Shown piece after piece: positions 30,901 through 34,342 of a stretch of DNA of 64,000 nt. The stretch's first letter is position 1; every line of letters begins with the position of its first letter. The position numbers and the translations under genes are program-made. The DNA is from Bacillus sp. FJAT-45350 (lineage in GTDB: Bacteria > Bacillota > Bacilli > Bacillales > NISU01): positions 1,310,079 to 1,374,078 of the forward strand of contig NZ_NISU01000001.1 of NCBI RefSeq assembly GCF_002335805.1, written 5' to 3'. The notes under the pieces were generated by a model. The model saw only the letters and a program-made list of their open reading frames with translations. It was not told where the DNA came from and did not search any database.

Positions 30901-31498
30901 TGAAGAAAAATGTTGTTAAGTTTGTTTGTAATTACCTTGTTAATGTTTACTGGTGTTTATGGGACGTTTGCTAAGAGTTCAATTGAATTTTCTGATGTCC
31001 CAACTTACCATTGGGCAAAATCTACTATTGATGAAGCGGCAATGGCTGGGCATGTGTTAGGTTACCCAGACGGTACATTTAGGCCAAATCAGTCTGTCAT
31101 TGTTGCTGAATTTGCTACGTTTTTAGCTCGCTTTTATGGTGAAGGGGATAAAATTCACGGTGAGGGAAGTTTTTATGAAAATGTTGAAAGGTTTATGCGA
31201 GAAAATCAGTATCCGTATTCTCAACATCCTAGGAACATTAACATATAGTAACTTTGCATTTGAGATAGCTTCATTAAAACACCTAACTTTTTCAATTGAA
31301 TTAGAAGGTGCAAATGCAAATAAATACGATTTTAATGACATTATATCTAGATTAGGTAACCCACAAGTTGAAGGAAAAACAGATAATGGAGTTTACTATA
31401 TTGGCTATGGAACAGAAGATCAAAACTTAATTTTTAATTCTCATAACAAGAGTAATGTATCAAGTATAGAGTACCTTTTATGGTCAGCAATCCAATAA
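30901..31498 (+). pseudogene. Decayed SLH-domain surface-protein gene
   Basis: ATG 30901 follows GAGGAG, but its frame ends early. One base fewer in the AAAAA run at 30905-30909 would join MKK to MLLSLFVITLLMFTGVYG, a signal peptide, in the frame of ATG 30910. An SLH domain follows (IEFSDVPTYHWAKSTIDEAA, then GHVLGYPDGTFRPNQSV), which anchors proteins to the cell wall. That frame ends at 31248. A third frame ends at 31498 with FSIELEGANANKYDFNDIIS and GNPQVEGKTDNGVYYIG, perhaps the C-terminal domain of the same or another protein. The result is a chimeric, broken gene. Nothing else is seen in 31499-31747. Confidence 0.6.
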
Positions 31499-31747
31499 AT
31501 AAATGATGATTTTGTAGAAATAGAGTAGATATCAATTAACAAATCGAAGGTAATCATTGGGAAGGTAGTAGTATTAATTTTGAAAATGACACCATAGGGG
31601 CTAATTCATTCTTTTTTGGATGAGTAACCTTTTTGTATCAAAGTACATATTTTTCATTCATAGTAGTGGTAGCAATATAATCTAAAGATTGTTCAATGGG
31701 TAAGATATAACGTACAATAACCGCAAAGTAAAAGAAAGGAGACCGTC

Positions 31748-32395
31748 ATGAACTATAATATACAAGCAAATACTATCCAAACTGCAACATTCGGTATGGG
31801 CTGATTTTGGGGTCCTGATGCTCGGTTCGGGCATCTACCAGGTGTTGTGAGGACAAGGGTTGGTTATGCTGGTGGCACAACAATTGCTCCAACTTACCGC
31901 CAGATAGGAGATCACTCGGAAACGCTACAAATTGATTTTGACCCTAACCTAATTACGTATGATGAGATTTTACGTCAGTTTTGGGAGAATCATAATGCTG
32001 TTAAGGAGCGCAATTATAAGGGACGTCAGTATATATCTATTCTTCTGTATCATGATGAAAGTCAAAGAGAAACAGCTAAAAGACTAAAAGCGGAATGGGA
32101 ACGTCTACAAAATGGAGAAATACAAACGGAATTCCAAGCTTATGCGAATTTCTATGTGGCTGAAGACTATCATCAAAAGTATTATTTGAAAAGGTATGTA
32201 AAAGCAACATCCGAAATTCAACATCTGTTTTATGACCATGATGCATTCATAAATTCCACAATCTCTGCCCGTTTAAATGGTTTCGTTAAGGGATTCGGCA
32301 CTATGAACACTATAAAGGAAGAGATAGAGAATTGGGGTCTTAATGCGGAAGAAAAGACAGATTTATTACACCATTTAGGTAATATTAAGTGGTAA
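31748..32395 (+). CDS. msrA: Peptide-methionine (S)-S-oxide reductase MsrA, probable selenoprotein (UGA at the catalytic Cys)
   Basis: Repairs oxidised methionine (S-sulfoxide) in proteins. ATG 31748 follows AAAGGAGACC. The frame is open for 215 residues except for one TGA at 31802-31804 (codon 19). The context TATFGMG-TGA-FWGPDARFG puts it exactly at the nucleophilic Cys of the MsrA motif G-C-F-W-G. Downstream, MsrA landmarks are intact: GVVRTRVGYAGGT, IDFDPNLITYDEILRQFW and HNAVKERNYKGRQYISILL. A hairpin with a GGUUC loop starts 13 nt after the TGA (see 31817). Sec-containing MsrA is known from some clostridia and algae. Read as Sec the protein is complete; read as a stop, only 18 residues would be made. 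A Cys-to-stop mutation remains the alternative. Confidence 0.8.
31817..31835 (+). promoter_or_regulatory. Candidate bacterial SECIS hairpin in msrA
   Basis: GATGC (31817-31821) pairs with GCATC (31831-31835), extended inward by T-G and C-G pairs to a GGTTC loop (31824-31828). The first loop G is 19 nt after the TGA, within the range for bacterial SECIS elements, where SelB needs a short hairpin with a GG/GU loop next to the UGA. CCT (31814-31816) and AGG (31840-31842) could extend the stem below a bulge. Confidence 0.65.
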
Positions 32396-32470: not shown

Positions 32471-34342
32471 TTACATTCTTTTCACTTTTTCAGTCTTCGG
32501 GTCGTATATGAATTTTAAATTTTTATAACTTCCTTCAAAAAATTCATTGTAGTAAGGTAGCTTTATTTTACTTTGATAGAGTGTATCAATCTCAATCATT
32601 TCACCTGCATAAAGTTCAGGTGGCTCACCTAATTCCGTTCCTACTGTGCTGGCTTTTATTGATTGTAATGCTTCAATCTTACCTCCACGAATGACTGCAT
32701 CCTTATGAGAGAAGATAATATTTTTACCTGCAAACAGTTGAGATTGAATGACCCCATCTTTCTTTATAATGATCTCACCATTTGTCTTTATCGTTGACGA
32801 TGTAGCAGACTTTATTTGAATACTACTTTCTTCATTTACCATAGATTCCATCTCTATAATTAACTCCTTAATTGAAAGGAGAATACTATTAAGTGCAGCT
32901 ATTGACTGAATCATTCGAATTGAATGAAAGTCTTTAAATTTAGATAGGCCATTTAAGAGTATTCTAGTTTTTACAGAATGCTGTATTTGGTTTTCAGGCA
33001 TTTCACTGAATATTTGATATAATTGATTGACTTCTTTAATGATATGGTCAAATTTCATTTCAAATAGCGTCTGGATTACATGGTTGAAGTTGAATTCAAG
33101 GTTCTTTTCGGTCATTGATTTTTCTAGTTGCTTCACTGCCAAGATTAATTTTTCAAAAGAAATTAAAAGATCTTGGGAAGTTTTGTATACTTGACTATAA
33201 TACATACTAAGTTGGCCAGCTATTACTTTACTATTGATGACGGTTCCCATTATATGAATATCTTGAGTAGCCGCAAGCTTGGCATGATAGACGTTTCCAT
33301 ACACATATATACTTCCAGAGCTTTCAACTTTCATATTGTCTTTTACATGACCTCGAATTAACACATCTCCACTAAAGTAAATATTTCCTGTCTTCATATC
33401 TACATCGCTATTTACTTCATATGTTTCAAGAATATCAATATGTTTGACCGAGTGACCAGTAATAGAAGGGCGACCTTGTTGAAGTGCAATCACTTGACCA
33501 TCTTCAGTAAGACGAACCCTCGGTTTTGGTCTTACTTCGATTTTCTTTGGTGGCTTTGGTTGGAGTACTTCTCCATAAACATTAATTCCATCTTTACCTT
33601 CTTTTGGTGGGAAGAGCCTTGCAATAACTTGTCCTGCCTCTACAGTAGGAATTTTCAACCGATTTTTATAATCGGCTTTTCCATCTACCTCTTCAATTAC
33701 TTCTTTTAAGTCTTTGGAAAAGTATTTTTCTATTACAGAGTCGACTGCTGGAATAGGTGGTAAGCCTTCCGCTACTTTAATAGGCTTGAACGTTGGATTT
33801 AACAACTCTTGAATAATTTTCGTTGTGTAAATCTCAACTGAAACACCTTTTTTTAATACTTCTTCAGTAATTTTTGAACTGACTTCTTCTACATCACACG
33901 GGCTCGAAACGGCTTCAAGCTCTAGCATCATACGATGAGAACGAGCTTTTGTAGCTAGTTCGTATGTTTTAAACAGTTCTGAGGACACTTGTAATAGAAT
34001 AGACAATTTATCATCACTAATTTTTATCGTAAAAGGTAAGGAAGAAGATTTTCTATGAATTTCAATTTTATCTTTAGAAAATACGATACGTTCTTTTTTT
34101 AGTAGTTGTTCATTTACTAGAATTTGCAGATCTGTATTAGGTACTAATATTGGATTTTTTCCACCTTCATTAGGGTCAATCACAAAAAGTTGTTGATCAC
34201 GCACTTCAATAAATCCATCATTTTTATTTAGGACTGATTCTCTACTAGTATGTTGAGTTTCATTATCAGAAGATGGTTTATGAATTTCTTGATTTAAGTT
34301 AAGGTCGTCTATTAATTCAAATAATTTCGCATCATTTTTCAT
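32471..34342 (-). CDS. FapA-family (DUF342) protein
   Basis: 623 aa. After an N-terminal region of about 170 residues, the FapA core starts with ITEEVLKKGVSVEIYTTKII and LPPIPAVDSVIEKYF. The central part has the family marks YKNRLKIPTVEAGQVIARLF and GKDGINVYGEVLQPKPPK, followed by beta-helix repeats (GNIYFSGDVLIRGHVKDNMK, then SGSIYVYGNVYHAKLAATQD) and a coiled-coil segment before a last repeat part. FapA proteins are tied to polar localisation/flagellar assembly in Vibrio; in Bacillaceae (YlxF/DUF342 kin) the role is unclear. Start ATG has AAAGGATG upstream. It is a single gene unit. Confidence 0.8.
   Translation of the reverse strand: MKNDAKLFELIDDLNLNQEIHKPSSDNETQHTSRESVLNKNDGFIEVRDQQLFVIDPNEGGKNPILVPNTDLQILVNEQLLKKERIVFSKDKIEIHRKSSSLPFTIKISDDKLSILLQVSSELFKTYELATKARSHRMMLELEAVSSPCDVEEVSSKITEEVLKKGVSVEIYTTKIIQELLNPTFKPIKVAEGLPPIPAVDSVIEKYFSKDLKEVIEEVDGKADYKNRLKIPTVEAGQVIARLFPPKEGKDGINVYGEVLQPKPPKKIEVRPKPRVRLTEDGQVIALQQGRPSITGHSVKHIDILETYEVNSDVDMKTGNIYFSGDVLIRGHVKDNMKVESSGSIYVYGNVYHAKLAATQDIHIMGTVINSKVIAGQLSMYYSQVYKTSQDLLISFEKLILAVKQLEKSMTEKNLEFNFNHVIQTLFEMKFDHIIKEVNQLYQIFSEMPENQIQHSVKTRILLNGLSKFKDFHSIRMIQSIAALNSILLSIKELIIEMESMVNEESSIQIKSATSSTIKTNGEIIIKKDGVIQSQLFAGKNIIFSHKDAVIRGGKIEALQSIKASTVGTELGEPPELYAGEMIEIDTLYQSKIKLPYYNEFFEGSYKNLKFIYDPKTEKVKRM

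Follow-up and report, generated by a model that had tools for sequence, protein, structure and literature searches.

Selenocysteine-containing peptide-methionine (S)-S-oxide reductase (Sec-MsrA) is one of the named selenoprotein families of prokaryotes (PMC9312934; PMC2398784; PMC1794560), and a 2006 survey counted three selenoproteins in all for Bacillales (PMC1794560). The closest described system is the MsrA of Clostridium (Alkaliphilus) oremlandii (CoMsrA; structures 4LWJ, 4LWK, 4LWL, 4LWM and 4U66), which has Sec in a catalytic GUFWG motif, is of the 1-Cys type without any cysteine, and carries a C-terminal helical domain whose role in this enzyme has been described as essential (PMC4333827). 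The ordinary Cys-MsrAs of Bacillus and E. coli (PF01625, TIGR00401) share the fold and motifs of the catalytic domain but have Cys in place of Sec, usually also contain resolving Cys residues, and are without the helical domain. Our search, which covered the open-access literature, found no paper on Sec-MsrA in Bacillales.

The window, which here means the whole stretch of 64,000 nucleotides that was analysed, contains an msrA frame interrupted by one in-frame TGA, with the following features.

31736..31741, plus strand: Shine-Dalgarno sequence AAGGAG, 6 nt 5' of the ATG (direct reading).
31748..32395, plus strand: msrA, predicted to encode a selenoprotein peptide-methionine (S)-S-oxide reductase of 215 aa with Sec19, followed by TAA (32393-32395).
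31802..31804, plus strand: TGA, predicted selenocysteine codon for catalytic residue 19, the counterpart of U16 in C. oremlandii MsrA.
31817..31835, plus strand: SECIS hairpin with a 7-bp stem (31817-31823 with 31829-31835) and the loop GGUUC (31824-31828), the conserved G being the second loop base (synonymous-codon test, further loci, covariation, fold).
31847..31849, plus strand: internal GTG, the start chosen by a table-11 ORF caller; an artefact without the active site.
32195..32392, plus strand: residues 150-215, predicted to form the C-terminal helical domain that marks the C. oremlandii type (role from PMC4333827).
32422..32458, plus strand: perfect 15-bp inverted repeat in the interval between msrA and a convergent gene at 32471-34342 (minus strand) (direct reading).

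An earlier note, made from the letters of this DNA, had read the frame as a selenoprotein MsrA, and its description of the locus agrees with ours: ATG 31748 follows a good ribosome-binding site, the only internal stop is the TGA of codon 19, which occupies the catalytic position of GMG-U-FWG and has 196 codons beyond it, and a hairpin GAUGCUC/GGUUC/GGGCAUC begins its loop 19 nt past the UGA. Read through, the protein is MNYNIQANTIQTATFGMG-U-FWGPDARFGHLPG..., 215 residues with zero cysteine. It matches PF01625 with 139.9 bits (cut-off 23.7; profile positions 1-147 of 153) and exceeds the cut-off of TIGR00401, while no model dedicated to Sec-MsrA is among its NCBIfam matches. As the note had foreseen, mechanical ORF calling (table 11) yields only GTG 31847-32395; because the active site is thereby dropped, such genes are likely to be misannotated. 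Downstream, the inverted repeat is likely a terminator common to msrA and the convergent gene, although it was not among the terminators listed by a simple scan. A promoter scan stayed under the shuffle level.

The nearest solved proteins by both sequence and fold are all C. oremlandii MsrA. The best sequence match, to 4u66, has an E-value of 6.5e-52, and the structure model of the window MsrA (pLDDT 94) aligns with 4lwm and 4lwj at TM 0.85-0.90 over 203-207 columns (0.85-0.86 query-normalised), whereas other MsrAs reach about 0.6 (query-normalised). The model has five predicted helices at residues 151-211, and comparison with 4lwj and 4lwm predicts that this C-terminal domain packs on the catalytic domain. 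All 22 invariant residues are retained, with U19-F20-W21, E58, H142 and Y145 conserved; the last three correspond to E55, H137 and Y140 of CoMsrA. Identity to CoMsrA is 41% over the whole length, and the differences are the origin from Bacillales and two extra residues near position 90. Ordinary Cys-MsrAs, in contrast, mostly align only at residues of about 10-150, with roughly 31-47% identity. As far as sequence and model can tell, the window MsrA fits each testable feature of CoMsrA, i.e., absence of Cys, catalytic residues and helices.

A Sec reading requires the corresponding machinery, whose absence the earlier note had named as grounds for abandoning its proposal. The host genome (4.30 Mb, 99.96% complete) contains all of it: selA (C1:812937-814304, 560.5 bits), selB (C1:804933-806801, 353.2 bits), selD about 1 kb from selA (L002:6277-7329, minus strand, 407.8 bits) and tRNA-Sec (C1:802686-802778, 59.1 bits with the Rfam model; anticodon UCA in CUUCAAA). 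ARAGORN found no tRNA in the first stretch taken around selA, and the tRNA-Sec sits just outside that stretch. At least two further genes of the genome have an in-frame TGA, namely selD and a peroxiredoxin-like lipoprotein. The UGA of selD is codon 18 (STKAG-U-GCK), and SelD is itself a selenoprotein here. The lipoprotein (L173:503-1030 = C1:138402-138929, plus strand) is AhpC/TSA-like, with the lipobox LSSILLSGC and the TGA in FTEIG-U-GLC, a UxxC motif, and is a candidate for a further selenoprotein. The three FDH-alpha-like genes of the genome were checked for TGA and have none; formate dehydrogenase therefore does not explain why this organism has a Sec system.

The TGA is far from private to this genome. 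A homologue search over the genome contigs and 60 relatives recovered 36 full-length homologues. The codon aligned with codon 19 of the window gene is TGA in 33 of them and a Cys codon, TGC or TGT, in the other three, a comparison the earlier note had proposed. The TGA homologues span six or more phyla, those outside Bacillota coming from Synergistota, Thermodesulfobacteriota, Spirochaetota, Acidobacteriota, Planctomycetota and Armatimonadota. Many of these non-Bacillota Sec-MsrAs (L066-L080) have N-terminal signal-peptide or lipobox-like leaders, which suggests from their sequences that they may be exported. Within the order, we searched an evenly drawn sample of 397 genomes with a family profile and tallied the counts from the result table: a long-form msrA with in-frame TGA occurs in 47/397 (E <= 1e-53), about one in eight, and there are eight long forms without a stop. 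Sec-MsrA is thus a minority yet widespread trait in the order, and the earlier remark that it would be unusual in Bacillaceae was too strong. The nearest tree rows to the window MsrA are Salirhabdus euzebyi (65% identity), Aquibacillus and Texcoconibacillus. The MsrA of G009 is closer still (75% over codons 1-83, 65% beyond), and in this closest relative (L031:1275-1920) the frame shifts at a run of G, which may be an assembly or sequencing error or mark a young pseudogene. Comparison of msrA gene neighbourhoods gave no conserved neighbours and no functional link.

A bacterial SECIS is a hairpin that closely follows the UGA on its 3' side and has G as one of the first two bases of the apical loop, and the hairpin of the window has this form. 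Its folding energy alone is unremarkable (z -0.87), and that of the 51-nt region reaches p<0.05 in 5/34 sequences, a test too weak per sequence; pairing of the specific stem under synonymous resampling was used instead. This also addresses the concern that coding for the conserved peptide FWGPDARFGHL might by itself produce the hairpin. The peptide of each homologue was recoded from local codon usage in 2000 draws and the seven named pairs were counted. The 33 Sec genes form 211/231 stem pairs against 141.8±5.9 under the synonymous null (maximum 161), while the three Cys homologues form 8/21 against 9.9±1.6. In the loop, Arg is encoded by CGG in 25/25 Sec genes (12% expected) and Gln by CAG in 8/8, and the second loop base is G in 33/33. 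Further loci from the order-wide set gave 119/126 pairs against 82.3±4.2 for Sec, with the loop G in 17/18 (3/18 of these loci are apparently from species already in the first set), and 17/35 against 13.7±2.0 for Cys. The stem also covaries strongly: doubly changed cells number 24, where shuffles give 8.0±3.2 and 0/500 of them reach that count, and the signal fails when the stem register is slid. For example, GAUGC..GCAUC becomes GACUCC..GGAGUC, with Ala/His changing to Ser/Ser in step in the protein. The hairpin 3' of the UGA is under real selection, and only the comparative test is decisive on this point.

Three other explanations of the TGA were weighed and rejected. The one that survives best, still very improbable, is that a near-cognate tRNA (e.g., that of Trp) reads the UGA without selenium. 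Bacillus is known to read through UGA at a low level, which lends this some plausibility; however, TGA ends 5/36 of the non-overlapping long ORFs in the window and so is a normal stop, the catalytic chemistry requires Se or S at residue 19, Cys is the sole replacement of Sec at the catalytic codon among the homologues, and the Sec state follows selA and selB. Scarcely credible is that a nonsense mutation hit the catalytic Cys codon of a redundant msrA copy and left a pseudogene. The earlier note had named an intact second msrA together with decay of this copy as the finding that would overturn its proposal, and the first half does hold, as the genome has two strong Cys MsrA genes, by which MsrA function is backed up, as well as a truly decayed MsrA fragment. 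The window copy itself is not decaying: dozens of genomes share its TGA, the TGA and hairpin are conserved over several phyla down to synonymous sites, the invariant residues are in place, its terminal branch is not long, and purifying selection acts on the codons to either side of the TGA. In codons 1-33, comparison with G009 and S. euzebyi gives dN 0.06-0.07 and dS 0.42-0.62, and in the remaining codons dN 0.18-0.38 and dS 0.53-2.9; the low dS of codons 1-33 fits the SECIS constraint. Equally implausible is a truncated, non-catalytic protein made from GTG 31847, whose frame is indeed open, with the upstream part untranslated, because it would be without U19, F20 and W21, a strong ribosome-binding site precedes ATG 31748, and codons 1-33 have a dN/dS of about 0.1 against both relatives and are therefore translated and constrained.

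Overall, we are next to certain that the window gene encodes a 1-Cys-type selenoprotein MsrA. The reading frame, machinery genes, conserved TGA, selected hairpin, conserved catalytic residues, predicted fold and purifying selection are results of the analysis, and actual Sec insertion, enzymatic activity and the reductant are inferred; the interpretation of the earlier note is supported by the Sec machinery, the conserved TGA, the selected hairpin, purifying selection and the CoMsrA match. SelB, tRNA-Sec(UCA) and the ribosome would decode UGA 31802-31804 as selenocysteine under the direction of the hairpin at 31817-31835. The Sec selenolate would attack the sulfoxide of Met-S-oxide with release of methionine, and since the protein has no resolving Cys, the oxidised Sec would have to be reduced from outside, by analogy with the CoMsrA type, which uses glutaredoxin and not thioredoxin, probably by a glutaredoxin-like protein. 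The genome has five Grx-like genes, with TGA in none. The C-terminal helical domain would keep the active site together.

The Sec or Cys state tracks the presence of selA and selB. In the first set selA is found in 33/34 genomes with the Sec form and 0/3 with the Cys form (the match in G013 is weak, far below the cut-off), and in the order-wide set selB is found in 40/40 Sec genomes and 0/9 stop-free ones. The exception is the metagenome bin G067, with a Sec homologue and neither selA nor selB detectable, probably due to incompleteness of the MAG. The Cys long forms (Planococcus koreensis, Tetzosporium hominis, groups f14 and f41) are full-length, with the helical domain and 48-56% identity to the window MsrA, but have TGC or TGT for TGA, no selA or selB in their genomes and, mostly, no hairpin. 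The exception is L141 (genome G370), which has TGC and keeps 6/7 SECIS pairs, likely a fossil SECIS after a Sec-to-Cys change. In the tree, Cys forms are nested among Bacillales Sec forms with a minimum of two changes (outgroup excluded), and the outgroup root suggests Sec-to-Cys replacement, although many branches are weakly supported. We consider it likely that Sec-MsrA is widespread and overlooked in Bacillales, and that the long-form family was ancestrally Sec, with Cys arising in lineages losing the Sec machinery. If so, the order would offer a natural setting in which to examine how Cys replaces Sec in a 1-Cys enzyme of solved structure. The paired Sec and Cys forms allow the reasons for retaining Sec to be studied by comparison. 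The window gene is a further case of a known selenoprotein, probably among many that have escaped notice in the order, and adds a real selenoprotein to Bacillales.

Two smaller observations concern other parts of the genome. The decayed MsrA fragment (L131:1455-1823, 122 aa, without the catalytic Cys) adjoins an IS3-type transposase. Upstream of msrA in the window, at 30910-31498, a short SLH-domain gene overlaps an ORF in another frame without a known domain, and the two are possibly one frameshifted S-layer-type gene.
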